Below, one piece after another: positions 35,395 through 52,212 of a stretch of 64,000 nt of DNA; position 1 is the stretch's first letter, and each line of letters starts with the position of its first letter. The notes beneath the pieces are model-generated. The model saw only the letters and a program-made list of their open reading frames with translations, was not told where the DNA came from and did no database searches. The DNA is taken from NCBI GenBank assembly GCA_003577275.1, contig QEVO01000001.1, forward strand, positions 558,001 through 622,000, read 5' to 3'. The position numbers and the translations under genes were made by a program. This DNA is from Pseudomonadota bacterium (GTDB lineage Bacteria > Pseudomonadota > Alphaproteobacteria > Sphingomonadales > Govanellaceae).

Positions 35395-36004
35395 AAAGCC
35401 TCCGTAGCGAATTATTGGATAGTATAATTTATTGGCGGCTGGCCAAGAACAGCTCACAAACTCATTACCCGGACGTCACTAATATAACACCCGAATTCGC
35501 ACGTAAAAGTAGCAGATTTTCTTAATTTGCACAAGGAATTGCTTTGGTAGCTCGCCAGCCGTTTCGAGTCGCATGGCTTTATCTAACCAATAATGAGCAT
35601 ATCTACGCGCCAAGTCTACACACCCTTGGATAGCGCAGATTGCGCTGGCTAGCGCTGAGAAGAGTAAAAAGGCGGTTGGCCTGTCGCTAATGGGAAAGAG
35701 CGAGGCGTGCATGGAAAGAATTGTAACAAACGCCGATTCTTAAGAGCACGGATAGGTCTTGGCCATGAAACAAGCCACTCCGATGCACTCACGGCTTTTG
35801 CCTTGGGGTGAAAACCCAGTCATATCGCATTGTTTTTAAATATATTTTTTTATTTAAGAGCAATGGGGCAAGAAGAAGAAAGTCCTGGCGAAGCGGTAGG
35901 TGATTTACGTCATGATCAGAATAGGCAGGAATGAGATGAATCATTTAACTTGGAGGCCGTGAGTGCTGCGGCATGGATGATTGCTTGAATATAGGGAGAA
36001 AAAA
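35395..36004. other. Divergent intergenic region, no recognisable gene
   Basis: This 610-nt stretch separates the LuxR-type regulator from a TonB receptor gene. A 77-codon minus-strand frame at 35479-35712 has no recognisable domain and no convincing ribosome-binding site, so it is not called. The right part is AT-rich (TTTTTAAATATATTTTTTTA near 35830). AGGGAGA at 35993-35999 is the receptor ribosome-binding site. Promoters and operators for both genes are expected here, but no defined site could be identified. Confidence 0.5.
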
Positions 36005-38413
36005 ATGACGATAAATAATAAGCGCATGATTGAACGCCTTGCTGGTAAGCGTAAAAGGGGGCACGGCTCGGCGCTGGCAAAGCTATTTCTATGCACCAGT
36101 TTGGTAAATCTGCTCGCCCTTGCCTCTATTGAGGTGAATGCAGAAGAAGTAGATACTGCGAATGATAGTGATTTGGGCGGTTTCGGAGAAATCGTCGTTA
36201 CGGCGCAAAAACGTGCCGAGAGGGCGCAAGATGTGCCAATCTCGATCTCGGCCTTTAATGATAAGACCCTGACAGAGGCCAATATTCAGGATATTTATGA
36301 TCTACCTAAGCTGGCTCCTAACTTCAATATGAACCGCGGCTCCGCTGTCACCGCAATACGCCTTAACATCAGAGGCGTCGGCGCTGCCGGCAACACGGCC
36401 ATTGAACCCAGCGTAGCAACCTTTGTTGATGGCGTATACGTGCCTCGGCCCGGCGCTATGTTCGCGACCTTCTTCGATGTTTCCGGCATTGAAGTATTGC
36501 GCGGCCCCCAGGGTACGCTGTTTGGACGAAACGCAAGCGTAGGCGCGCTCAACTTGAGAACGGCTCTGCCGGAAGATGAATGGAGCGGCAAGATCAAGGC
36601 GGAAGCCGCCTCGGGGGAACGCTATCGTCTTGAAGGCCATGTAAACGCGCCGCTATCGGATACCACCTCGCTCCGCATTGCGGCGGTGGGCGAGCAGTTT
36701 GACGGCGTATGGAAGAATCTGATTGATCCTGCAACTCGTGGCGATGATTACGAGCGTTTCGGCGGTCTGGATACCATGGGTATTCGCGCCACGCTGCGCA
36801 GCAAGTTAACAGATCAGTTAACCTGGGTTCTGCGAGGTGAATACACTGACCTCGACGGGCAGGGAATGACACTTTACCAATTTGATTATACTTCAATAGG
36901 GCCCGCACAATTGGCGAACTTCATTGCCCGGCTGGGGGGTCATATTCCGTACCAGAACCCAACGCACAGAACGACAAGTCAGTATCTGGAAGGGCTCTAT
37001 AAGGATAAACAGTGGGCAATCACCAGTGAATTGTCTTATGAATTTACGTCGGACTACACCTTGAAGTGGATCGGCAGCTACCGCGATTGGGATAGCTTCC
37101 AAACAGATGGTGACCTTGTGTTTGCTGCCCAGCCGATCCTGGGCCGGGCGATGCCGTTCAGAAGCAAGAGCCATAATCACGAATTACAGCTTATTTCGCC
37201 GACGGATATGTTTGATGATCGGTTCTCTTTTGTAGCCGGTCTTTACTACTTTCACGAAAAATATTTCCTGGGCGAGGATTGGCTCAATTTGGGTGAATAT
37301 TGTAATGTAGTTGTGGGGCTTGCAGCGCCCGCCCTGGTTCCGGCGTGTCTAGGCGGCACAAAAACACTGACAAACCTGGATTTTAACCAGAAGTCTGAAA
37401 GCTTTGCCGCCTATTCTCAGGGAACCTTTAAGATCACACAAGACTTGGATGTTACCCTTGGCGTCCGCTATACGGATGAGAAAAAGAGTGCTAATTTCCT
37501 TCAAGAGGTCATCAGTCCCGGCGGGAATCTATTAAGAGCTCCGGAGGTATCGCCATTAAAATTTAGTGATAGTAAGGTTACCTGGCGCGCCAATTTATCC
37601 TGGCGGCCAATGGAAGACGTAATGCTGTTCGCATCCTTCTCAACAGGGTATAAATCCGGCGGGTTTAATGCTGGCGGAGCAGCGGCAGCGCTTAATTCAG
37701 CTCGTCGTGTTTATGATGGCGAAAACGTCGATAATTATGAAGCCGGCGTGAAAAGCCAGTGGCTGGATCGCAAAATTACGGCCAATCTTACTTTCTATCG
37801 CATGGAAATTGGTGGTTTCCAGGATCGGTCATTCGATGGGTTGAGCTTTGTGGTGGCAAACGCCGGCAGCCTTCGCCATCAGGGGTTTGAACTGGATGGA
37901 CAAATTCGCCCAGGATACGGCATAACCCTTAACTATGGGGTTGCATACCTGGATTCAGAATTTACATCATTCCCTGCGGCTTCCGGTCTGCCCGGTTTTG
38001 GCGGTACGCAGAATCTGAAGGGCGCACCAGCGACATTTGCGCCAAGATGGCAAGGCTCCGTGGGCGCCCAGTATGATGGTGAATTGCCACAAGGGCTTGA
38101 ATGGTCGCTGCGCAGTGACGTCAGCTTTATCTCAAAGCATAATGCGGGTGCGGCAACCGATAATAACCCGCAGACCATACAAAAAGGATATGCAACGGTA
38201 TCGGCCAGGCTCGCGGTGCGTTCGCCCGATACCGGCTGGGAAGTTGCAGTATTTGGGGACAATATTTTCGATAAGCGCTATTGCATCTTGCGCCCCTACC
38301 AACCACTTGACGGTCTTTGGGGGCTACGTGATGCAACTACCGGCGGTAGCGGCGTACAATGCGTACCTGGCCAGCCGCAAACGTATGGCATATCCTTTTC
38401 TAAGGAATTCTAG
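36005..38413 (+). CDS. TonB-dependent outer-membrane receptor
   Basis: This 802-residue receptor has an extended N-terminal signal region (about residues 1-45, ending VNAEE), a TonB-box-like EIVVTAQKR (about 60), a plug domain (about 65-185; DVPISISAF, LNIRGVG, GPQGTLFGRNASVGALN) and a 22-strand barrel ending in Phe (SFSKEF). The sequence type is the one abundant in sphingomonads and other oligotrophic alphaproteobacteria, often used for hydrophobic or plant-derived compounds rather than siderophores. The ATG at 36005 has AGGGAGA upstream. It lies between the LuxR-type regulator and the DUF3604 gene and is followed by a strong terminator, so it is a separate transcript. Substrate unknown. Confidence 0.9.
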   Translation: MTINNKRMIERLAGKRKRGHGSALAKLFLCTSLVNLLALASIEVNAEEVDTANDSDLGGFGEIVVTAQKRAERAQDVPISISAFNDKTLTEANIQDIYDLPKLAPNFNMNRGSAVTAIRLNIRGVGAAGNTAIEPSVATFVDGVYVPRPGAMFATFFDVSGIEVLRGPQGTLFGRNASVGALNLRTALPEDEWSGKIKAEAASGERYRLEGHVNAPLSDTTSLRIAAVGEQFDGVWKNLIDPATRGDDYERFGGLDTMGIRATLRSKLTDQLTWVLRGEYTDLDGQGMTLYQFDYTSIGPAQLANFIARLGGHIPYQNPTHRTTSQYLEGLYKDKQWAITSELSYEFTSDYTLKWIGSYRDWDSFQTDGDLVFAAQPILGRAMPFRSKSHNHELQLISPTDMFDDRFSFVAGLYYFHEKYFLGEDWLNLGEYCNVVVGLAAPALVPACLGGTKTLTNLDFNQKSESFAAYSQGTFKITQDLDVTLGVRYTDEKKSANFLQEVISPGGNLLRAPEVSPLKFSDSKVTWRANLSWRPMEDVMLFASFSTGYKSGGFNAGGAAAALNSARRVYDGENVDNYEAGVKSQWLDRKITANLTFYRMEIGGFQDRSFDGLSFVVANAGSLRHQGFELDGQIRPGYGITLNYGVAYLDSEFTSFPAASGLPGFGGTQNLKGAPATFAPRWQGSVGAQYDGELPQGLEWSLRSDVSFISKHNAGAATDNNPQTIQKGYATVSARLAVRSPDTGWEVAVFGDNIFDKRYCILRPYQPLDGLWGLRDATTGGSGVQCVPGQPQTYGISFSKEF

Positions 38414-38580: not shown

Positions 38581-40404
38581 ATGAAAAAACCTAAACTCCG
38601 GGATACCCTGCTGCTGACAACTTTGTGGATGGGGACGGCCTATGGCGCGCCCGCAATGGCGGCGGAGCCCTACTGGGGCGATACCCATGTCCATACGACC
38701 TATTCCATGGACGCCTTTATGTTCGGCACCAACATTGATCCCAGCGCCGCCTACCGTTTTGCTCGCGGCGTGCCTGTTATTCAACCGGTGACAGGGGCGT
38801 GGATTCAGATCAGACGGCCCTTGGACTTCATTGTTATTTCCGACCATGCCGAGATGCTGGGCGTGGCGGCCGGGGTTGCGACGGAAGAATCCTTGATCAG
38901 CTCTACATCGACTGGCAGGAAGTATATTCAGTGGTTTAAGGAAGGAAGACTTGGTGATATTTACGCTGATTTTGTAAAAGTTTTAGTTGGTGGCGAAGAT
39001 ACGGACGTTAATGATGACAGAATAAAAAAATCGATCTGGTCGCGTGTCGCCGATGCGGCGGATTTAAACAATCTGCCGGGAAAGTTTACCGCGTTCACGG
39101 GGTGGGAGTGGACATCTAACACCAATGGCGCCAATCTGCACCGGGTTGTCTTCACGCCCGCCGATGCCTCAACCGCAAAAAAATTTACGCCTTATTCCGC
39201 CTTTGATTCCGCCAAGCCGGAAGATCTCTGGAAGTGGCTGACAAAAATCAGAAAGGAAACCGGCGCTGATTTTGTCGCCATTCCACATAATTCAAACGTA
39301 TCAAAAGGCAAGATGTTCGATATGGCGGACAGCGAAGGCCGGCCCATATCGGCGGAGTACGCCAGGAACAGAATGATGTGGGAAGTCGCGGCCGAAGTAA
39401 CCCAGATCAAGGGCACGTCGGAAACCCATCCGGCGCTGTCACCGACTGATGAATTTGCTGGATTTGAATTATACACCACGCTCCTGCAAGGCAGAAAAGA
39501 TGGCGTTAAAGCAGTCGCCCGGCCATCGGAAGCTGATTATCTGCGCAGCGCGTTGAAGCGCGGCATGGAAATTCAGCAAAGAACCGGGGTGAACCCCTAT
39601 AAAGTCGGACTTATTGGTTCATCCGATACCCACACGGGCTTAGCATCATCTGACGAGGATGAATTCTACGGCAAGTCAGTGATCGATATGCTGCCGGCTG
39701 ACAAGGAAAAGGAATTTCCCGGCATCCCAACCAACGGCTGGGAAATGTCGGCCTCGGGCTTGGCCGCGGTTTGGGCCACGGAAAATACCCGTGAAGCGAT
39801 ATTCGCCGCATTCAAGCGCCGGGAGGTGTACGCCACCACGGGCCCGCGCATTATGTTGCGCTTCTTCGGCGGGTTTGGCTTTAATGCGGAGGACGCCAGC
39901 GCGGCTGATATAGCCTCTGTTGGTTATGCCCGCGGCGTTCCCATGGGCGGCGACCTTCTGCGGGCGCCCAAAGACAAGGCGCCGAGCTTCTTGGTGCATG
40001 CCGTCCGCGATCCCATTGGCGCTAACCTGGATCGGGTGCAGATTATCAAGGGCTGGGTAGATGCGAGCGGCAAGGCCCAAGAGCGCATCTACGATGTTGC
40101 GTGGTCCGGCAATCGGACGATGGATGTTAATGGAAAGCTGGAAGCGGTTGGCGATACTGTTGATACGGAGAATGTCCGTTACAGCAATAGCATCGGCTCC
40201 CCGCAATTGTCGAGGGTATGGGTTGATCCCGACTTTAACCCCAGCGAGACGGCATTCTATTATGTCCGGGTGCTGCAAATCCCGACGCCAAGATTCTCGC
40301 TCTATGATGCGAAAGCGCTGCAGATTGATCACTCCGAAACAGGGCAGCCGGCTTCCATTCAAGAACGGGCATACTCGTCTCCGATCTGGTATAACCCAAA
40401 GTAA
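38581..40404 (+). CDS. Exported DUF3604 protein
   Basis: This 607-residue protein has a signal peptide (cleavage probably after GAPAMA, about residue 28) and then GDTHVHTTYSMDAF, the His-rich start of the DUF3604 family, which resembles a PHP-type metal site. Further candidate metal ligands are ISDHAEM (about 86), WEWTSN, IPHNSN (about 238) and GSSDTHTG (about 344). A periplasmic metal-dependent hydrolase is inferred from the residues; no reaction is known to me for the family. GGAGGG lies 5 nt before the ATG. Two genes for a HupE-like membrane protein and a parvulin-like protein follow on the same strand, 26 and about 100 nt apart, suggesting one functional unit. Confidence 0.85.
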   Translation: MKKPKLRDTLLLTTLWMGTAYGAPAMAAEPYWGDTHVHTTYSMDAFMFGTNIDPSAAYRFARGVPVIQPVTGAWIQIRRPLDFIVISDHAEMLGVAAGVATEESLISSTSTGRKYIQWFKEGRLGDIYADFVKVLVGGEDTDVNDDRIKKSIWSRVADAADLNNLPGKFTAFTGWEWTSNTNGANLHRVVFTPADASTAKKFTPYSAFDSAKPEDLWKWLTKIRKETGADFVAIPHNSNVSKGKMFDMADSEGRPISAEYARNRMMWEVAAEVTQIKGTSETHPALSPTDEFAGFELYTTLLQGRKDGVKAVARPSEADYLRSALKRGMEIQQRTGVNPYKVGLIGSSDTHTGLASSDEDEFYGKSVIDMLPADKEKEFPGIPTNGWEMSASGLAAVWATENTREAIFAAFKRREVYATTGPRIMLRFFGGFGFNAEDASAADIASVGYARGVPMGGDLLRAPKDKAPSFLVHAVRDPIGANLDRVQIIKGWVDASGKAQERIYDVAWSGNRTMDVNGKLEAVGDTVDTENVRYSNSIGSPQLSRVWVDPDFNPSETAFYYVRVLQIPTPRFSLYDAKALQIDHSETGQPASIQERAYSSPIWYNPK

Positions 40405-40430
40405 AGGGGTGTATAAGAAGACACTAACAT

Positions 40431-41447
40431 ATGTGCGCTAGACTTATTGTATGGGTAGTTTTAATACTATGGAGAGGCGCCTTTCCTGCCAATGCGCATG
40501 AGGCTCACCCTCTTTATATTAGCTTAGAAGAAAGCAATGATGGGAGTATTGTAGCCCATCTAAAGCTTCCAGAAACAATACCAATCAATGAAGGGCCCAT
40601 TCTGCTTATTCCAGATGGTTGTATGGTAACGAGCGGGATAGGTTCGATAAAGAATCCACAAACATGGATAGCGCCGGTGTCGTTCCGCTGTCAGGGTGGA
40701 TTAAGTGAGAAAATTTTTTCCATAAAATATGCAGTAGGCAACCCGGCTATTACTTCATTAATTCGGATAGCCTGGCGAGACAGAAGCGAAACAATAAAAA
40801 TACTTCCGCCCAATGAGCTGACATGGAGCTTCCCAAAAGAGCAAAAATTTTTCGATGTGGCAGTTAGCTATTTTAAACTGGGTGTAGAACATATTTGGAC
40901 CGGAATTGATCATCTATTGTTTGTGGCTGCGCTTGTCATGTTGGTGACGCGCATTAATCTCCTTATCTGGACGATTACGGGTTTTACCATAGCTCATTCT
41001 ATTACATTGGCCCTGGCAGCATTGGACATTGTAAATATTGCAATTCCGCCAACCGAGGCGGTCATAGCGCTTTCAATCGTATTTATCGCCCGTGAGCTTG
41101 CGGATAAAAGGCAGGATACAATTGGGAAACGATTTCCCATCGCGGTGTCCTTTATTTTTGGATTGCTTCATGGCTTCGGATTTGCCGCAGCATTAGCCGA
41201 GATTGGATTGCCCAAACAAAATGTCGCGAGCGGCCTGCTGTTTTTCAATATTGGCGTCGAGATAGGACAGATTGCTTTTATATTACTTCTATTATCAATA
41301 TTTTCTGTGTCTTACCACCTTATTCGCAAGATGTCCGAACCATATATGCCCCTAATTTCACGATGGGGGCACAAAACTTTAGCCGCTTATGGATTAGGCG
41401 CATTGGCAACATTCTGGTTTTTTCAGAGAATTGAAATTTTGATATAG
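40431..41447 (+). CDS. HupE/UreJ-2 family membrane protein
   Basis: The 338 residues comprise a signal peptide (about 1-22, ending ANA), a soluble periplasmic domain (about 23-145) and a C-terminal membrane domain with six or so helices. Conserved residues are GVEHIWTGIDHLLF (about 152-165), IAHSITLAL and FGLLHGFGFAAAL, the signature of HupE/UreJ-type proteins, which are proposed metal (Ni/Co-like) permeases. Here no hydrogenase or urease genes are near; instead DUF3604 precedes and a parvulin-like gene follows. Codon use is strikingly AT-rich compared with the neighbouring DUF3604 and TonB receptor genes. No strong ribosome-binding site is seen. Confidence 0.85.
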   Translation: MCARLIVWVVLILWRGAFPANAHEAHPLYISLEESNDGSIVAHLKLPETIPINEGPILLIPDGCMVTSGIGSIKNPQTWIAPVSFRCQGGLSEKIFSIKYAVGNPAITSLIRIAWRDRSETIKILPPNELTWSFPKEQKFFDVAVSYFKLGVEHIWTGIDHLLFVAALVMLVTRINLLIWTITGFTIAHSITLALAALDIVNIAIPPTEAVIALSIVFIARELADKRQDTIGKRFPIAVSFIFGLLHGFGFAAALAEIGLPKQNVASGLLFFNIGVEIGQIAFILLLLSIFSVSYHLIRKMSEPYMPLISRWGHKTLAAYGLGALATFWFFQRIEILI

Positions 41448-41550
41448 AGGATTACTATTTTTTAGAATGAGCATATTTGCCGCAGCCAAGTTAGGATCTG
41501 CCTCCTGCTCAAAAGGCCAGGTAAATAGTTGATCGATGTGGAGATCTCAG

Positions 41551-42417
41551 ATGCGACGTTTATTGAAGGATCCATTTACACATTTCTTGTTATTGGGCGC
41601 GTTTATTTATTGGCTCTATGGCAGTGTAACAAATCACGGCGTGCTTAGTAGACAAAATGAGGTGTATGTTTCCCGCGCCCAAGTACTGAATTATATGCAG
41701 TACAAGGCAAAGTTATTTGATGAGGAGAGATTTTCAGATTATCTCTCTAGCCTTTCAGACGCGCAAAAAAAATTACTTGTAGATAATTTTATTGAGGACG
41801 AAATTCTTTATAAAGAGGCCCTACGTCTGGGGCTTGATCAAGGGGATTTTATTATCAAGCAAAGGTTGGCATCAAAAGTGCGCTTCCTGCTGGAAGATTC
41901 CGCTAGTCAAACCCAACCCAGGGATAACGGTCTGGAGGCATATTTCAAAGAAAATATAAACAGATATGTTCAGCCGGCTTCAATAACTTTTACTCATATC
42001 TTTTTCGATAAATCAATTCGCGGTAAGGATAAGGCTTCTCAAGATGCGATAAATGCGCTTCATATTATGAATGAGGGGAAAGAAAGCCAAGATCGTTTAG
42101 GAGACCGATTCCCATTTTTGATTAATTATGCAGACCGAACACAGCGCTATGTTGCTGATCACTTTGGTGAATCCATGAGTGAAAAGATATTATCACTAAC
42201 GCCGAATGAGAAAAAATGGCAAGGACCATTCGAATCTAATTACGGATACCATATTATCCTCCTTTATGACATTAAGAGTGAACGCGTACCGAGCATAGAT
42301 GAGATTCGTCCTCAGTTGACTTCGGATTTTCTGCAAGAAAAGCAGGATGCGGCACTCCGAGACTCAATTAAGGAAGTAAAGAGCAGGTATCATATAAGAG
42401 TGGATGCTGATATATAA
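41551..42417 (+). CDS. Membrane-anchored parvulin-like peptidyl-prolyl isomerase
   Basis: This 288-residue protein has one N-terminal membrane helix (about residues 9-26) and a periplasmic part. A SurA/PpiC-like chaperone region (SLSDAQKKLLVDNFIEDEILYKEA) precedes a parvulin-like domain (about 145-255; ITFTHIFF and GPFESNYGYHIILL). The parvulin domain is short and some active-site His positions are not evident, so activity is uncertain. It may fold or stabilise the neighbouring periplasmic proteins. The ATG at 41551 follows GGAGAT; an ATG at 41536 is less likely. AT-rich like the HupE gene, with which it appears to form a pair. Confidence 0.8.
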   Translation: MRRLLKDPFTHFLLLGAFIYWLYGSVTNHGVLSRQNEVYVSRAQVLNYMQYKAKLFDEERFSDYLSSLSDAQKKLLVDNFIEDEILYKEALRLGLDQGDFIIKQRLASKVRFLLEDSASQTQPRDNGLEAYFKENINRYVQPASITFTHIFFDKSIRGKDKASQDAINALHIMNEGKESQDRLGDRFPFLINYADRTQRYVADHFGESMSEKILSLTPNEKKWQGPFESNYGYHIILLYDIKSERVPSIDEIRPQLTSDFLQEKQDAALRDSIKEVKSRYHIRVDADI

Positions 42418-42456
42418 GGCCGTTTATGTTTGATAACATGATGTTGCCAGTCTTCA

Positions 42457-42560
42457 TGACCTGCTCCCCGGAAAGTCCCTGATTTAGGGTTAGTCTGCTC
42501 TTCGCTAGAGGAGACGGACGGTGATGATATCCCGTTTTAGCGAGGAGCAGATCATTGGCC
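42457..42560 (+). mobile_element. IS3-family left-end remnant
   Basis: The segment starts TGACCTGCTCCCCGGAAAG, a typical IS3-family (IS407-like) end. About 65 nt later it encodes a short run from ATG at 42520: MISRFSEEQIIG, the start of an IS3 OrfA protein. Similarity stops after about 100 nt, so only a relic remains. It lies at the junction between the AT-rich HupE/parvulin pair and the GC-richer TonB receptor. Confidence 0.6.
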
Positions 42561-42692
42561 TTACACCTCTTTGGTGATATATATTCATGACATAGCGGTT
42601 TGAGAGCAATTATTCTTCTAATAACAATAATTCTTGATTTTTTAATATTTGATAACTTACAGCCTTGATATCGTCTGATATAAACGCATCCC

Positions 42693-44771
42693 ATGATCAG
42701 CTTATTTATTATTGCCGGCGCGCTTGTGTCTGTACTCCCCGCCTTCGCTGTTGCGGGTGAGTACATTCCTGAAATTATCGTATCTGAGCGTCATCTTCCA
42801 CGGTCTGAGGGAATGGATGCGTATTCTGGGGTTAAGTTAGGGGCGGATGTGTTGCAAACATCGTCGTTCCCCCGGCTTGATGACGTGCTGAGATCCATCC
42901 CCGGCGTTGATCTCTTTCGGCGGACATCGAGCCGAGTGGCGCATCCGACGGCACAAGGGTTAAGCATGCGGGGGATTGGCCCCAATGGCGCTGGCCGAGC
43001 GCTAGTGCTGTTGGATGGCGTGCCCCAGAACGATCCTTTTGGGGGCTGGGTTTATTGGAGCGTCATGCCAACCTCTGATATTGCCGAGATAGAGGTGGTC
43101 CGCGGCGGCGGGGCGGGGGGCTGGGGGAACACGGCTTTAGCGGGGGCGGTGATTTTACGCTCCCGCGCCATAGACGGAACCGGCGGCGCCTTTGAGGGAT
43201 CTTACAGTAGTAAAGACACAGCGTCGCTTGCCGGCAACGCACAGGTTGATCTGGGCTCGGCGGCGGTGTTTGCAGGCGGGCATTATGATCGCTCTGATGG
43301 GTATTACACCTTGCGCCGGGACCAGCGTGGAATGGTGGATCAGCCGCTGGCGTCCGAGACCAAGGTGGGACGCGTCGGCGTGCGCTGGCGGTTGGGTGAC
43401 ATTACCACGGCGACAGTGAAGTTCTCTGCCTTTGAGGAGGAGCGGAATAATGGCAGTCCAATGGCTGACAATAAGACGCGTTCCTATGACGTGAGCCTGC
43501 GCCTGGTGCGGGAAGAAGCCGACGGCGATGGGTTTGAAGTAACACTCTACGGAACGGATCGCCGCTTTAAGAGCCGGTTCAGTTCCATCTCCAATGACCG
43601 GTTGAGCGAGGTGCCCGCGCTCGACCAGTACAATGTTCCCGCCAAGGCCTTTGGCGCCGCTGCGCTTTTACGTCGCTCCATGGGCTTCGGCGGGGTGATG
43701 GAAGTGGGGCTGGACATGCGCCGTCTGGAGGGGGAGACGCGGGAACGCTTTTTCCTCTCCGGAGGGGAATTCCAACGTGATCGGCGGGCGGGCGGCGATC
43801 AGTTGATGGCGGGGGGGTTCATGGATTACACAACCCGGCCCGCGCACAAGGTCAAAATCACCGGTGGGGTGCGCCTGGATTACCTGAAAAACTTCGATGG
43901 TTCACGGATCGAGCGCACCATTGCCACAGGGGATATTCTTCGGACTGATGTCTTCGCTGATACGGATCACTGGGTGGCAAACGGCCGGCTGGGGGTGGTC
44001 TATGAGGCAAGTGAGGACATCAGCCTAAGGGGTGCGGCATATTCCGGCTTTCGCCTGCCCACCATCAACGAGCTTTATCGCCCGTTCCGGGTGCGGAATG
44101 ATATCACCGAGGCCAATCCGCTTTTGAAGCCGGAACGTCTGTGGGGCTTGGAGGCCGGACTGCGGGTTGCGCCGGCGTACGCTCTCTCCCTCGACGTCAC
44201 CGCTTTCGTGAACTGGCTCAACGACGGCATCGCCAATGTGCTGATCACAGATCAGCCTGGGTTTAATGCCGGGCTTAACACCTTTGTCCCTGTAGGCGGC
44301 ACGTTGAGCCAGCGCCGTAATCTGGACCGCGTTCGCGCTTTGGGCCTTGAAACTTCACTCACCTGGACACCTAACCCGACCTGGACCATAGAAGCGCAGT
44401 ATCTATTGAGCGCCCCCAAGGTGACCAAGGCCGATGCTCAGCCGAACCTTGTGGGAGAGCGGCCGCCGCAAACTTCCCGCCACCAGGGCAACGTCAGCAT
44501 CGTCTGGGCGCCGGACACCGGCCCCTTCAATGCTCGTTTAACCATCCATGGTAGTTCGCAAGCCTTTGAAGACGGTCTCAATATGCAGTCCATCGATGGG
44601 TATGTCGCAGCCGATGTTCACCTCGGCTACCAGCTCACTCCCACGGCCAGTTTGTTCCTGGCGGCGGAAAATATCCTGGGCGCCACAATCGAAACTGGTA
44701 ATTCCGCCAGCGGCCTCATCACCATTGGAACGCCGCGGTTGATATCAGTGGGGATAAGGGTGAGTTTATAG
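42693..44771 (+). CDS. TonB-dependent receptor, metal/cobalamin type
   Basis: The 692 residues are shorter than the other receptors here and closer to BtuB/OprC/CirA-type transporters. A signal peptide (about 1-21) is followed by a TonB box-like EIIVSERH and a plug (about 45-150; LSMRGIGPNGAGRALVLLDGVPQNDPFGGW, ADIAEIEVVRGGGAGGWGNTALAGAVI in parts). The 22-strand barrel ends ISVGIRVSL. No strong ribosome-binding site precedes the ATG at 42693. Base composition is higher in GC than the preceding HupE and parvulin genes, and an IS3 remnant lies between, so it may have come from a different source. It could import a metal chelate for the HupE/DUF3604 module or be unrelated. Confidence 0.87.
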   Translation: MISLFIIAGALVSVLPAFAVAGEYIPEIIVSERHLPRSEGMDAYSGVKLGADVLQTSSFPRLDDVLRSIPGVDLFRRTSSRVAHPTAQGLSMRGIGPNGAGRALVLLDGVPQNDPFGGWVYWSVMPTSDIAEIEVVRGGGAGGWGNTALAGAVILRSRAIDGTGGAFEGSYSSKDTASLAGNAQVDLGSAAVFAGGHYDRSDGYYTLRRDQRGMVDQPLASETKVGRVGVRWRLGDITTATVKFSAFEEERNNGSPMADNKTRSYDVSLRLVREEADGDGFEVTLYGTDRRFKSRFSSISNDRLSEVPALDQYNVPAKAFGAAALLRRSMGFGGVMEVGLDMRRLEGETRERFFLSGGEFQRDRRAGGDQLMAGGFMDYTTRPAHKVKITGGVRLDYLKNFDGSRIERTIATGDILRTDVFADTDHWVANGRLGVVYEASEDISLRGAAYSGFRLPTINELYRPFRVRNDITEANPLLKPERLWGLEAGLRVAPAYALSLDVTAFVNWLNDGIANVLITDQPGFNAGLNTFVPVGGTLSQRRNLDRVRALGLETSLTWTPNPTWTIEAQYLLSAPKVTKADAQPNLVGERPPQTSRHQGNVSIVWAPDTGPFNARLTIHGSSQAFEDGLNMQSIDGYVAADVHLGYQLTPTASLFLAAENILGATIETGNSASGLITIGTPRLISVGIRVSL

Positions 44772-44894: not shown

Positions 44895-46451
44895 ATGATC
44901 AGCAGCGCCAGGACCATCAAGGATCTGCCGGAACATTTCAATGCCGCGGTTGATTTGATTGCAGGCAATCTTGCCGCCGGACGAGGCGATAAGGCGGCGG
45001 TTATCGATTGTGATGGAGCGACCACCTACGGCCAGCTGGCGGAGCGGGTGGATCGCATGGCCAATGCGCTCTTGGCCGCCGGCATCAGGCGCGAGCAGCG
45101 GATTTTGCTGTGCTTGTTGGATACCGTGGACTTCCCCACGGTTTTTCTGGGCGCCATCAAGGCAGGGATTGTTCCGGTGCCGCTCAACACGCTGTTGGTG
45201 GAGGATGACTATCGGTGGATCCTGCACAATAGCGGCGCGGCCGCCGTCATCGTTACCGACGAGCTGTCGCCGCAATGGCAACGAATTGCCCGGGAAAATC
45301 CATCCGTTCAATTCTTCTCAAGCGGCCAAGATGGTCCCTGGCCAAAACTTAGGGACATGCTTAAGGCCGCTGATCCCCAGGCTGAGCCTGCCGCTACGCA
45401 TCGCGACGAAGTGGCGTTCTGGCTTTACACATCCGGCTCCACCGGTCGGCCGAAGGGCGTCATGCATACCCATGGCTCGCTGCGGCTGACGGTAAATCTC
45501 TATGGTCAAGGCATTGTGCGCTATCGGCCGTCCGATATCGTTCTCTCGGTCGCCAAGCAATTCTTTGCCTATGGTCTCGGCAATTCCTTGACCTTTCCTT
45601 ATGCCGCGGGGGCGACGGTGGTTTTGCACCGGGACAGGGCCACGCCATCGGCGATCAGCGATCTCCTGCGCCGGCACCAAGTGACGATCTTGAACGGCGT
45701 GCCGACCTTCTTTGCCGGCTGGCTGGCCAGCGACGATATCCCGACGCGCCAGAAGGCGCCGGCGCTCAGGCTTGCCACGTCGGCCGGAGAATGCTTGCCG
45801 GCCCATATCGGCCAGGCGTTTCATGATCGTTTCCAGATTGATGTTATCGATGGTCTCGGCTCGACGGAAATGCTGCATATCTTCCTGTCGCAGGTTCCCG
45901 GCGCGGTGCGCTACGGCTGTACCGGCCGACCGGTTCCAGGGTATGAAGTGCGTATCGTTGATGATGCCGGCAACGCGTTGCCGCCCGGGGAAATCGGCGA
46001 GTTGCAGGTCAAGGGACCGACCATGGCGGCGGGGTATTGGAAGAACCGCCCGCAGTCCGTGACGACGTTTCTTGGCGAGTGGATGCGCACCGGGGATAAA
46101 TATTCATGCGACGTTGATGGCTGGTACGCTTATGCCGGCCGTTCCGATGATATGCTGAAAGTGGGCGGCATTTATGTGTCCCCCATGGAGGTGGAGGCGG
46201 CCCTGGCGTGCCACGATGCCGTGTTGGAAGTCGCCGTGGTCGGCGCGGCGGACGCGGACGATCTGATCAAGCCGCGCGCCCACGTGGTGCTGAAGGCCGG
46301 GTATATGGCTTCCCTTGAGATGGAAGTTTCCTTGAAAAACCACGTCAAGACCCGGCTTGCACCCTATAAATATCCGCGCTGGATCAAATTCATGGAGGAG
46401 TTGCCCAAAACCGCCACCGGCAAGATCCAACGCTTTCATCTGCGGGATTAG
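44895..46451 (+). CDS. Benzoate-CoA-ligase-like acyl-CoA synthetase
   Basis: This 518-residue AMP-forming ligase has P-loop YTSGSTGRPKGVMHTHGS (about 177), the DGLGSTEMLHIF motif (about 318), the hinge AGRSDDMLKVGGIYVSP (about 415) and the C-terminal catalytic Lys in PKTATGKIQRF (about 510). The segment VVLHRDRATPSAISDLLRRH and the overall length fit benzoate/aryl-CoA ligases. It should activate an aromatic or related acid to its CoA thioester. GAGGA lies upstream of the ATG. It is convergent with the LysR gene. In context it could activate the acid formed by the PQQ dehydrogenase encoded at 50050-52212. Confidence 0.87.
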   Translation: MISSARTIKDLPEHFNAAVDLIAGNLAAGRGDKAAVIDCDGATTYGQLAERVDRMANALLAAGIRREQRILLCLLDTVDFPTVFLGAIKAGIVPVPLNTLLVEDDYRWILHNSGAAAVIVTDELSPQWQRIARENPSVQFFSSGQDGPWPKLRDMLKAADPQAEPAATHRDEVAFWLYTSGSTGRPKGVMHTHGSLRLTVNLYGQGIVRYRPSDIVLSVAKQFFAYGLGNSLTFPYAAGATVVLHRDRATPSAISDLLRRHQVTILNGVPTFFAGWLASDDIPTRQKAPALRLATSAGECLPAHIGQAFHDRFQIDVIDGLGSTEMLHIFLSQVPGAVRYGCTGRPVPGYEVRIVDDAGNALPPGEIGELQVKGPTMAAGYWKNRPQSVTTFLGEWMRTGDKYSCDVDGWYAYAGRSDDMLKVGGIYVSPMEVEAALACHDAVLEVAVVGAADADDLIKPRAHVVLKAGYMASLEMEVSLKNHVKTRLAPYKYPRWIKFMEELPKTATGKIQRFHLRD

Positions 46452-47632: not shown

Positions 47633-47737
47633 AAAATTTGAGTGTTGGAAAGAGGGCACTACTCTAATGCGGTAAGGCTTTTGCGGCCATGCCAAGAAAT
47701 AATCAACGCGGGCCGTGAACATTTGGGAGGCATGTTA

Positions 47738-50002
47738 ATGGCTATTTTCACAGGGAAACTATCTTTATCGCGTTGGACACTAACTACTGCTTTGGTGTCG
47801 GCGGGCAGCGTATGGTGCGGGCCGGCGCTGGCGCAATCGACGTCACTGGAAGAAATCATTGTGACATCGCAAAAGCAGGCGGAATCGTTGCAGGATGTGC
47901 CGGTGGCCGTCAGTGTGGTGACCGGCGATAAGATGGAGCGCTACGGCATCCAGACGTTTGAAGACCTTACCGCCTCCATTCCCAACGTGCATGTTGGGGA
48001 AAATACCATTGGGGATGGGTTGTTCATCCGCGGCATCGGCTCCGGCGTGAACCAGGGGTTTGAACAGTCCGTCGGCATTTTCATGGATGATATCTATTAT
48101 GGCCGAGGACGTATTACCCGTTCCATGATGTTTGACCTGGAGCGGGTCGAAGTCTTGAAAGGGCCACAGGGCATTCTGTTTGGCAAGAACACCATCGGCG
48201 GCGCGCTCAATATCGCCAGCCGGGGCGTTTCCTCGGAATTTGAAGGCTATGTGGATGGCCGGTATGAATTCCGTGATAACGAAATCGAAGTATCGGCGGC
48301 CGTATCTGGCCCGGTTTCCGACAAATTCCGGGTGCGGGCCGCGGTGCGCTACCGTGATCTGGGCGGCTTTATCAAGAACGTTTCGCTGGATCGTCACGAA
48401 CCCTCCCGAGAGGAAATCGCCACTCGCCTGACGGCGGCTTGGGATATTACCGATAATCTCGAAGCCATCGCCCGCTTCCAGTATGGCGAACTTGATATTC
48501 AGGGTCGGTCGGCGCAGCCGGCTTTTTGTACGCCTGCGTATTTGACTTTTGCCGGGCCTGCGGAAGATTGCACCTTTAACCAGACGCGGTCGGCTGTGGT
48601 GTCGCAATCCCTGTTGGGCGATGACGAATTTGAAAAGTTCGACTTTCACACCATTGGCCTAACCGTCAATTGGGACGTTAAAGACCATACAATCACCAGT
48701 GTCACATCCTATGTGAAGTACGACGATTCCACGGTTATCGATGGCGACTTTGCTGACCGGGATCTTCTGGTGGTGGACCAGCAGGAAGAATTCGAGGTCT
48801 TCTCTCAGGAATTGCGGGTAGTATCATCCCACTCGGGACCTCTGCGATACATTATTGGCGCTTATTTTGAAACCACGAATCTGACCACCTTGAATGACTG
48901 GCACGTCAATACAGCTTTGCGTGGTCTACCTTCGGGCAGCCGCTTGATCGGCAACGATCAGGATTCCGAATCGTGGGCCGTATTTGCACAAGCGTCCTAT
49001 GATATTCTAGATGAGCTGACGGTGGTCTTAGGCGCGCGTTATACCGAGGAAACTAAGAAAGATATCCAAGAGCTGGTGATTGCTAATCTGTTCACGCGGA
49101 CGCCAAATCCAGCTTTGGAGCCATTTTTCAAGGCCGCGCTCAATTCTGAACCTCACCTTTTTAACGAGCGACGCAAGACCACGGATTTCAACCCGTCCGC
49201 CACCCTTGAATGGCGGCCAAATGGCGAAACGTTAATCTATGGCAGCGTGAAGACCGGCTTCAAGGCCGGCGGTTTTGACCATGCCGCTTCCGTCGCTGAT
49301 GTGGCAGCCTTTGAATACGATGACGAAACCGCCACCAGCTTTGAATTGGGCGCCAAGCTTGATCTATTGGACGGCGCCGCTACGCTGAATATTGCCGCGT
49401 TCCACACCACCTTTAAAAACCTTCAGGTTAGCACTTATGACGGGACGTTGGGGTATAAGGTCGGCAACGCTGCAAAAGTCACTTCCAAAGGGGTTGAAGT
49501 GGATGGTCGTTGGCGGGCCACACCGGAACTCATCTTAGGGTTGTCCGTTGCCTATCTCGACTCAGCCTATGATGCTTTCCCCGGCGCCCAGTGTTATTTT
49601 GGACAGACTGTGGAACAAGGATGTGTTGGCGGGCTCCAGGATTTGTCCGGCAAGCCCACCCAGTTTTCGCCGGAATGGTCCGGCAACTTCAATATCGACT
49701 ACGTACGGCCGATTTCCAATGATTATGAACTTCTGGCCAATCTTGATATCAACTTCACGGATGATAGCGTCATCGCCAACGACGTAGACCCTTTTTTCAT
49801 TCAACAGGCGTATGCGAAAATAGACGCGCGCCTGGGAGTGGCCAATACTTCGCAGGGTTGGGAAATTGCGGTGATCGGTAAGAACTTGACCGATAAGAAG
49901 ACATTCAACTGGGGCAATGACACGCCATTGTTCCCTGGCTCCTATTACAAACATCTGGAACGACCAATGACGATTGCAGTGCAAGGACGTCTACGTTTTT
50001 GA
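47738..50002 (+). CDS. TonB-dependent outer-membrane receptor
   Basis: This 754-residue receptor has a signal peptide (about residues 1-33, ending PALAQ), the TonB box EEIIVTSQKQ, a plug (about 45-170; DVPVAVSVVTGD, LFIRGIGSG, GPQGILFGKNTIGGALNI) and a barrel ending in Phe (QGRLRF). The sequence type matches receptors used for organic nutrients in oligotrophic alphaproteobacteria. The ATG at 47738 is 7 nt after GGGAGG; an ATG two codons earlier is too close to that site. It heads a run with the PQQ dehydrogenase (47 nt gap) and the sulfatase, suggesting uptake of their substrate. Confidence 0.9.
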   Translation: MAIFTGKLSLSRWTLTTALVSAGSVWCGPALAQSTSLEEIIVTSQKQAESLQDVPVAVSVVTGDKMERYGIQTFEDLTASIPNVHVGENTIGDGLFIRGIGSGVNQGFEQSVGIFMDDIYYGRGRITRSMMFDLERVEVLKGPQGILFGKNTIGGALNIASRGVSSEFEGYVDGRYEFRDNEIEVSAAVSGPVSDKFRVRAAVRYRDLGGFIKNVSLDRHEPSREEIATRLTAAWDITDNLEAIARFQYGELDIQGRSAQPAFCTPAYLTFAGPAEDCTFNQTRSAVVSQSLLGDDEFEKFDFHTIGLTVNWDVKDHTITSVTSYVKYDDSTVIDGDFADRDLLVVDQQEEFEVFSQELRVVSSHSGPLRYIIGAYFETTNLTTLNDWHVNTALRGLPSGSRLIGNDQDSESWAVFAQASYDILDELTVVLGARYTEETKKDIQELVIANLFTRTPNPALEPFFKAALNSEPHLFNERRKTTDFNPSATLEWRPNGETLIYGSVKTGFKAGGFDHAASVADVAAFEYDDETATSFELGAKLDLLDGAATLNIAAFHTTFKNLQVSTYDGTLGYKVGNAAKVTSKGVEVDGRWRATPELILGLSVAYLDSAYDAFPGAQCYFGQTVEQGCVGGLQDLSGKPTQFSPEWSGNFNIDYVRPISNDYELLANLDINFTDDSVIANDVDPFFIQQAYAKIDARLGVANTSQGWEIAVIGKNLTDKKTFNWGNDTPLFPGSYYKHLERPMTIAVQGRLRF

Positions 50003-50049
50003 GCCTGTCTTATGGGCGGCCGTTCTGATTTCAAGTGCGAGTAGGGCTC

Positions 50050-52212
50050 ATGAGACATACGATTTTCTATGCCTTAGCAATAGCGGCAGCGGCGTCATTG
50101 GCGACGGGGTGCAGCAAAGTCTCCCGTGATGAAGCCGCCAACCAGATAAAACCTACGGCAGAAAAGATCGGCGCGGCCCGCATTAATGATGCGACCCTTG
50201 TCATGGCAGATAAGGACCAAGCCAATTGGCTGACCCATGGCCGTACCTACAGCGAACAACGCTTCAGTCCGCTCAACCAGATCAATGATAAATCCATCGC
50301 CAATCTTGGCCTGGCATGGGAAGCGTCGCTGGAAACGTTTCGTGGGATTGAAGCCACGCCCATCGTTGTTGATGGCGTCATGTATGTGACCGGCTCATGG
50401 AGCAAAGTTTATGCCTTTGACGCTAAAACCGGGCAACGTAAATGGGCTTACGACCCGCAGGTGTTGCCGGAAAAAGCGGCGCATGCATGCTGTGACGTGG
50501 TCAACCGGGGCGTGGCTGTTTATAACGGTAAGGTATTTGTCGGCACGATCGATGGCCGTCTGATTGCGCTGGATGCCGCTTCCGGCCAGCCAGTATGGTC
50601 AACCCAGACGGTGGATGTAGACAGACCCTATACGATAACCGGCGCTCCCCGGGTGGTCAAAGGGAAGGTCATCATTGGCAACGGCGGCGCCGAGTATGGC
50701 GTTAGGGGGTTTGTTTCCGCCTATGACGTCGATGACGGCGGCTTGGTGTGGCGTTTTTACACCGTTCCGGGCAATCCAACGGACGGTTTTGAAAATAACG
50801 CCATGAAAAAAGCTGCTGAAACATGGACGGGGGAATGGTGGAAATATGGCGGCGGCGGCACGGTTTGGGACTCCATGGCCTATGATCCGGAATTGGATCT
50901 CCTCTACATCGGCGTCGGCAACGGCTCGCCGTGGAACCAAAAGGTCAGAAGCCCGAAGGGCGGCGATAATCTCTACTTATCGTCTATCGTGGCGCTGCGG
51001 CCGGATACCGGCGACTATGTCTGGCATTATCAGACCACGCCGGGAGAAACGTGGGATTTCACCGCCACCCAGCACATCATGCTGGCGGATATGGAACTTG
51101 GCGGGATGGTGCGCAAAGTGCTGATGCAGGCGCCCAAGAATGGTTTCTTTTATGTCATCGATCGCGCCACCGGCAAATTAATTTCCGCCAATAACTTTGT
51201 GCCGGTAACCTGGGCCACGCACATTGATCTTAAAACCGGTCGTCCTGTTGAAAACCCGGAAGCGCGCTATCCTGAGGGCCGGGCGGTGGTCAAACCGTCC
51301 CCGTTCGGGGCGCACAATTGGCACCCTATGGCGTACAGCCCGCTGACCGGCTTGGTGTACATCCCGGCCCAGGATGTACCGTTTCTGTATCAGGATAAGG
51401 TTGATGATAAGTTTGATCCCGATACCTTCAATACCATGACCGACTGGGCCGTGGGCGAACTGCCATCGCAGGAAGCGCAGCGTAAAGAACTGAAGGCGAT
51501 GATTAAGGGTGAGCTTGTTGCCTGGAATCCGGTTACTCAAAAAGCTGCCTGGCGGGTGCGGTATGATCGCATGTGGAACGGCGGCGTGTTGGCGACGGCA
51601 GGCAACCTCGTATTCCAGGGGCGCGCAGATGACTCATTCGCAGCCTATGCGGCAGATACCGGGGCTCTGTTGTGGTCCGTGCCGGTGGGAACGGGCATTG
51701 TTTCTGGGCCTGTTTCCTATCTGGTCGATGGCGAACAGTACGTGGCGGTAACCGCGGGCTGGGGCTCGGTCATGACCCTGGTGGCGGGGTATCTTTCGGG
51801 ACCAAAGCCGGGTCCGGTGGAGGGCCGTGTGCTGGTTTTCAAGTTGGGCGGCACGGACAAAATTGATTTGCCCCAGAATGGCATGCTGTCTGTGCCGGAA
51901 CCGCCGCATCAAAGCGCGTCTGCGGCAACCATTGAATCCGGCAAACGGCTTTATGCCCGCTACTGCTTCATGTGCCATGGGGATAGCGTGATCAGCGGCG
52001 GCTCTATTCCCGACCTGCGCTATTCCGGCACGCTGGCTGATGACGCTTGGTTTGATGTCGTCCTGAACGGTGCTTTAGCCGAACGAGGTATGCGCAGCTT
52101 CCAATCCTCCATAGACAGGGCAGGGGCAGAGGCGATCCGCGCTTATGTATTAAGCCGCGCCTGGGCTGCCTACGAAGACGAAACGGCGAACATAGCGCGC
52201 AAGAAGCCCTGA
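50050..52212 (+). CDS. PQQ-dependent quinohemoprotein alcohol dehydrogenase, lipoprotein-type
   Basis: The 720 residues comprise an eight-bladed PQQ propeller (about 40-590) and a C-terminal cytochrome c domain (about 620-705) with heme motif CFMCH. The vicinal disulfide HACCDVVNRG and the active-site GETWDFTATQHIM (catalytic Asp) are present, so the enzyme should be active and oxidise alcohols to aldehydes. The signal region ends LATGCS, a probable lipobox with Cys at about 24, unlike the soluble periplasmic enzymes of most relatives; this implies outer-membrane anchoring. AGGG lies upstream of the ATG. No PQQ biosynthesis genes are in the window. Confidence 0.92.
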   Translation: MRHTIFYALAIAAAASLATGCSKVSRDEAANQIKPTAEKIGAARINDATLVMADKDQANWLTHGRTYSEQRFSPLNQINDKSIANLGLAWEASLETFRGIEATPIVVDGVMYVTGSWSKVYAFDAKTGQRKWAYDPQVLPEKAAHACCDVVNRGVAVYNGKVFVGTIDGRLIALDAASGQPVWSTQTVDVDRPYTITGAPRVVKGKVIIGNGGAEYGVRGFVSAYDVDDGGLVWRFYTVPGNPTDGFENNAMKKAAETWTGEWWKYGGGGTVWDSMAYDPELDLLYIGVGNGSPWNQKVRSPKGGDNLYLSSIVALRPDTGDYVWHYQTTPGETWDFTATQHIMLADMELGGMVRKVLMQAPKNGFFYVIDRATGKLISANNFVPVTWATHIDLKTGRPVENPEARYPEGRAVVKPSPFGAHNWHPMAYSPLTGLVYIPAQDVPFLYQDKVDDKFDPDTFNTMTDWAVGELPSQEAQRKELKAMIKGELVAWNPVTQKAAWRVRYDRMWNGGVLATAGNLVFQGRADDSFAAYAADTGALLWSVPVGTGIVSGPVSYLVDGEQYVAVTAGWGSVMTLVAGYLSGPKPGPVEGRVLVFKLGGTDKIDLPQNGMLSVPEPPHQSASAATIESGKRLYARYCFMCHGDSVISGGSIPDLRYSGTLADDAWFDVVLNGALAERGMRSFQSSIDRAGAEAIRAYVLSRAWAAYEDETANIARKKP

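Follow-up and report, generated by a model that had tools for sequence, protein, structure and literature searches.

DUF3604, a predicted exported metallohydrolase, recurs with a parvulin and a HupE/UreJ-2 protein that may mature it

DUF3604 proteins are widespread in bacterial genomes, and a literature search found them in a single paper, mentioned in passing. The source genome of the stretch analysed here (64,000 nucleotides, hereafter the window: contig QEVO01000001.1, positions 558,001-622,000 of the forward strand; assembly GCA_003577275.1, Pseudomonadota, Govanellaceae) has one DUF3604 gene (D), and this lies beside genes for a HupE/UreJ-2 membrane protein (H) and a parvulin (P). We found that D, P and H are associated far above chance, that the association recurs across several phyla, and that DUF3604 carries the ordered motifs and invariant candidate ligands of PHP-type metallohydrolases; inheritance of the three genes as a set points to a conserved envelope system, possibly one in which P and H mature the DUF3604 protein. 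Profile matches bore out the genes and their order as first read from the sequence, with D, H and P consecutive and a receptor gene after them; the three core genes and their main features, which include the peptidyl-prolyl isomerase (PPIase) domain of the parvulin, are:

38581-40404, + strand: DUF3604 protein, 607 residues; predicted to be exported and a PHP-type metallohydrolase (PF12228, 765 bits)
40431-41447, + strand: HupE/UreJ-2 protein, 338 residues; short anglerase-like domain in the periplasm, then a membrane domain of several helices (PF13795, 148 bits)
40497-40499, + strand: codon for His23 of HupE, predicted residue 1 of the mature protein (cleavage between FPANA and HEAHP)
41536-42417, + strand: parvulin-like protein, 293 residues; membrane-anchored, periplasmic (PF13145, 42.6 bits)
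41932-42312, + strand: PPIase domain of the parvulin

A parvulin and a HupE/UreJ-2 protein accompany DUF3604 in cis or in trans

Of 289 genomes sampled at class level, 28 carried a full-size DUF3604; with adjacency counted by hand from coordinates, D, P and H lay together in 24 of the 28, and two further genomes (G270 and G174) had a D-P pair with no detectable PF13795 protein alongside. We also considered 80 named loci from many phyla, 23 of which were cut too short to judge: P, H or both lay within 9 kb of D in 34 of the 57 judgeable loci (at least 34 of 80 overall), and neither was near D in 23 loci with good flanks. Where D stood apart, a strong P-H pair was present elsewhere in the genome in 16 of the 20 genomes searched, and a divergent pair in three more of those 20. 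The sequence-only reading had proposed a three-gene module, to be abandoned should the genes fail to co-occur in other genomes; they do co-occur, and the module stands as one conserved across phyla.

P preceded H in all 56 same-strand pairings (duplicate records or split frames mean that a few loci enter this count twice), with a 4-bp overlap in 36; this constant order and frequent overlap suggest that P and H form a translationally coupled pair. No parvulin gene was found beside the HupE/UreJ-2 genes of genomes without full-length DUF3604 (0 of 20; L164-L183), and P therefore tracks with D, not with HupE in general. Together, the linkage in cis, the pairs in trans and the parvulin-free HupE genes indicate that the P-H pair belongs to DUF3604, whether or not it is encoded next to it. 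In most HupE proteins from those D-negative genomes the periplasmic domain is longer, at about 200 residues, and the sequence that follows the signal peptide often begins AHE or AH. In several genomes a single P-H pair goes with as many as four D genes (four in G009, G143 and G091, for example), which fits what is expected of shared maturation factors.

DUF3604 resembles PHP metallohydrolases

The DUF3604 protein of the window matches PF12228 over its full length (positions 4-591 of 591; cut-off 20.4 bits). Its predicted signal peptide (38581-38661) leaves a mature protein that begins AEPYWGDTHVH, and its AlphaFold2 model has a mean predicted local distance difference test score (pLDDT) of 92.7 and a predicted template modelling score of 0.92. 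Along the chain run the motifs HVH(36), DH(88), GWEW(174), HR(187), PHN(235), EVTQ(272) and SDTH(348), in the same order as HSH, DH, GVEI, H, HP, EVAQ and SDFH of Escherichia coli RNase AM; one strict PHP motif pattern fits 42 of 46 DUF3604 relatives. The sequence-only reading had proposed a periplasmic metalloenzyme and had named loss of its metal ligands in relatives as grounds for doubt; H36, H38, D88, H89, E176, H187, H236, E272, D349 and H351 are invariant in all 46 sequences, and with the ordered motifs they argue, at the level of sequence, for such an enzyme. The likeness to PHP phosphoesterases such as RNase AM/TrpH and YcdX of E. coli thus lies in the shared order of HxH, DH, GxE, H, PH/HP, E.TQ and SDxH; unlike them, DUF3604 is a predicted exported protein of about 600 residues with large inserts and a further beta-rich C-terminal part.

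Statistical support for PHP homology beyond these motifs is modest. Pairwise HHalign comparison with the RNase AM family gave E-values of 0.003-0.011, against 0.29-0.41 for controls; this family served as the PHP yardstick in place of DnaE, to whose PHP domains DUF3604 gave no match, DnaE being a poor yardstick (its alphaproteobacterial versions have no HxH, and the strand was wrong for some of the loci). A Foldseek search with the DUF3604 model returned the PHP phosphoesterase 3e0f weakly, at rank 35 (E 0.015, probability 0.82), below unrelated beta-sandwich proteins with insignificant E-values. The Pfam scan matched DUF3604 alone and no PHP family, the PHP_C family was absent from DUF3604 relatives, and a sequence search of the Protein Data Bank (PDB) found nothing meaningful. 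About a quarter of the relatives have a lipobox, and a simple twin-arginine pattern fitted none of them, which makes export by Sec probable; the metal would then presumably be loaded outside the cytoplasm.

The partners are a putative metal permease and an anchored parvulin

In the membrane domain of H, an HX5DH motif (H154, D160, H161) is invariant in 25 of 25 relatives, and H189, E209, E222, H247 and E277 are also conserved; HX5DH is the motif described for Rhizobium leguminosarum HupE and the HupE/UreJ nickel/cobalt transporters. Like those proteins, the window HupE has invariant His and Glu residues in its membrane helices; unlike them, it has LHGxGFA as its second motif, an extra periplasmic domain, and no urease or hydrogenase neighbours. 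Urease, hydrogenase and B12 genes were all absent from the genes scanned around it, and a genome-wide search, made for the urease alpha subunit and not for hydrogenase or B12 genes, gave a marginal 23.4-bit match inside a 452-residue frame.

H also bears a Sec-type signal whose predicted cleavage site, read from the A-x-A pattern, would give the mature protein an N-terminal His. Its AlphaFold2 model (pLDDT 86.7) places a beta-sandwich (strands 28-133) before the membrane helices. A PDB sequence search gave no meaningful match, though whether the copy searched included 9GCE, the solved Ang-1 domain, was unchecked, and Foldseek gave only insignificant matches to the whole two-domain model, the domain alone not being searched. 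This architecture recalls the Ang-1 anglerase-HupE/UreJ-2 proteins, which have been proposed as metal-capture permeases (Franco Cairo et al. 2025, PMC12537917) and whose His1 domain binds Cu (Kd ~74 nM) and Ni (~220 nM) in vitro (PMC12537917). Their gene neighbours are mostly of unknown function in that study, which mentions neither DUF3604 nor a PPIase. The window HupE shares with them the signal peptide, the mature N-terminal His (as do most of its relatives) and the succession of periplasmic beta-sandwich and PF13795 membrane domain. It differs in the length of its periplasmic domain (about 110 residues versus about 176), in its tie to DUF3604 and to a parvulin that always precedes it (in the window, follows it), and in position 1 of the mature protein, where 20 of 25 relatives have His and the other 5 have Asp.

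The parvulin is anchored at its N terminus; its parvulin domain scores above the PF13145 cut-off of 27 bits, and its profile matches the solved parvulins cell-binding factor 2, HP0175, SurA and PrsA. Both catalytic-type histidines, His154 and His239, are present in the window protein, and His239 of the GxH motif is kept in 56 of 59 relatives. A literature search for HupE together with a PPIase found nothing relevant.

Divergent versions of the set also occur. Four loci (L032, L033, L035 and L043) that had been taken for P-H pairs without DUF3604 proved to have a divergent partner, a DUF3604-like protein of about 750 residues encoded with a parvulin and a 400-residue HupE whose membrane-domain match is split; the one such 750-residue protein that was read from end to end keeps the motifs of DUF3604. 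In the Bacteroidota Christiangramia gaetbulicola and Robertkochia sp. (L081, 1-5605, and L274, 7870-17529), the operon continues after P with a gene for a 700-residue membrane protein, similar to the periplasmic domain of H in its N-terminal part but without a match to Pfam HupE; genes for an ATP-binding cassette (ABC) ATPase, a MacB/FtsX-like permease and a ZnuA metal-binding lipoprotein come next, and D lies close by. The sequence-only reading had proposed a metal theme for these genes; our results support it, and a ZnuA metal-binding protein where the HupE part would be expected strengthens it.

Maturation of the exported hydrolase and its alternatives

The account towards which we lean, with reserve, is that P and H fold and metallate the exported DUF3604 hydrolase. 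DUF3604 would be an exported metallohydrolase of the PHP superfamily, either a soluble periplasmic protein or an attached lipoprotein, and P and H its dedicated envelope accessory pair: the parvulin, anchored in the inner membrane, would aid folding of the newly exported hydrolase, and H, whose predicted N-terminal His would sit on a small beta-sandwich in the periplasm, over a NiCoT-like membrane domain, would supply or insert metal ions for the PHP site. Our data show the gene linkage, the dependence in cis or in trans, the conserved ligands and the predicted topology; that P and H act on DUF3604, which metal is involved and which way it moves we infer. We prefer this model because the parvulin goes with D, a single P-H pair serves several D genes and the client is a predicted exported metalloenzyme; a shared P-H pair and a parvulin tied to DUF3604 fit maturation better than plain metal uptake. 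There is precedent in the E. coli PHP phosphatase YcdX, which has a dedicated zinc-maturation chaperone, YcdY (PMC4464133). As in that pair, a PHP enzyme would here be encoded beside a dedicated factor, which for YcdX promotes metal loading; YcdY is a cytoplasmic chaperone of the TorD family, unrelated to parvulin or HupE. Somewhat more tentatively still, the parvulin and N-terminal-His permease may be a coupled pair that passes metal to the enzyme in the periplasm, and so represent a dedicated envelope pathway for folding and metallation of a widespread family of exported PHP hydrolases, with an ABC/ZnuA version in Bacteroidota.

Several observations weigh against maturation by P and H. HupE proteins of known function import nickel into the cytoplasm, whereas loading of DUF3604 would take place in the periplasm. 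His1 is replaced by Asp in a fifth of HupE relatives, and D distances correlate modestly with P and H distances (r 0.37-0.38, as against 0.60 between P and H; species phylogeny uncorrected in both). Only 33 of 59 relatives keep the first catalytic-type histidine of the parvulin, His154, so its enzymatic PPIase activity may be dispensable. If the maturation account is correct, it would show how one class of periplasmic metalloenzyme acquires its metal after export. With two partners and a PHP fold for DUF3604, the three proteins together gain a concrete, testable function, and DUF3604 becomes a candidate client for anglerase-HupE proteins.

Much of the same evidence could be read as metal acquisition, along the lines of the sequence-only reading, which suggested import of Ni, Co, Cu or a chelate; we consider this rather unlikely. 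DUF3604 would cleave an imported metal-bearing or phosphorylated ligand in the periplasm, the anglerase domain would catch the freed metal and HupE would import it, the parvulin merely helping to fold envelope parts. The metal-capture role proposed for anglerase-HupE proteins, metal import by characterised HupE proteins and the ZnuA gene adjoining the module in Bacteroidota are all in keeping with this; so is a TonB receptor directly upstream of D on the same strand, but such receptors are inconstant (5 of about 100 loci), and no metal-specific receptor was found at the window locus. Nor does acquisition sit well with HupE lacking a parvulin outside the DUF3604 context, or with several DUF3604 copies alongside one P-H pair.

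Less probable again is a catabolic role, in which DUF3604 performs a step in degrading an imported organic compound (for example phosphorylated or sulfated) and P-H handles the product or a counter-ion, not the metal of the enzyme. Many D loci do lie amid genes for acyl-CoA ligases, acyl-CoA dehydrogenases, enoyl-CoA hydratases and short-chain dehydrogenases (named by eye), sulfatase-like genes stand beside D in Christiangramia, and a benzoate-CoA-ligase-type gene lies 3' of the module in the window; these catabolic neighbours differ from locus to locus, however, while P-H stays constant, and the metal-type motif of HupE is invariant. That the linkage is an accident of a shared island, with no functional tie, seems very improbable: the window copy is itself rearranged and probably transferred, as such an accident would have it, but the recurrence across phyla, the constant overlapping P-H order and the pairs in trans largely refute it.

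The window carries a rearranged copy of the module

Flanking the three genes of the window are two receptor genes and an insertion-sequence remnant:

35981-38413, + strand: upstream TonB-dependent receptor (PF00593/PF07715), directly 5' of DUF3604; possibly an optional substrate importer
42457-42562, + strand: remnant of an IS3-family element, truncated to its left end (MISRFSEEQIIG...), which separates the parvulin from the downstream receptor; rearrangement junction, outside the system
42693-44771, + strand: downstream TonB-dependent receptor, ligand not assigned; probably outside the module

The downstream receptor had been proposed as a possible BtuB/OprC-like, metal-type member of the system, and neither part of that proposal found support. 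All NCBIfam receptor models scored far below cut-off (60 bits against 600 for B12, 100 against 317 for heme and 101 against 223 for siderophores), and PDB matches, to FecA and the colicin I receptor, covered only the plug region. No homologue was found near the module at other loci, and the IS3 remnant intervenes between it and the parvulin; we therefore rejected it as a candidate member, and it probably lies outside the module. The upstream gene, omitted from the sequence-only reading, encodes a different TonB receptor on the same strand as D and is a possible optional partner that would import substrate.

The IS3 remnant holds the start of orfA and has no second copy in the genome; plasmid sequences similar to it run on into an IS3 orfA-like frame. 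At none of the other loci seen does H come before P, as it does in the window. The guanine-plus-cytosine (GC) content of H (0.43) and P (0.40) is 11-15 points lower than that of D (0.54), compared with a mean D-P difference of 0.006 at 46 other loci (standard deviation 0.026, maximum 0.071), and no DUF3604 was found in the same-genus and same-family genomes searched. The locus thus looks like a transferred, rearranged piece, and its neighbours beyond D, H and P are for that reason not to be over-read. Those to the 3' side include a benzoate-CoA-ligase-family gene (44895-46451; TIGR02262, 686 bits, above cut-off) and, at 47642-52212, a TonB receptor gene followed by one for a pyrroloquinoline quinone (PQQ)-dependent alcohol dehydrogenase with a cytochrome c domain.

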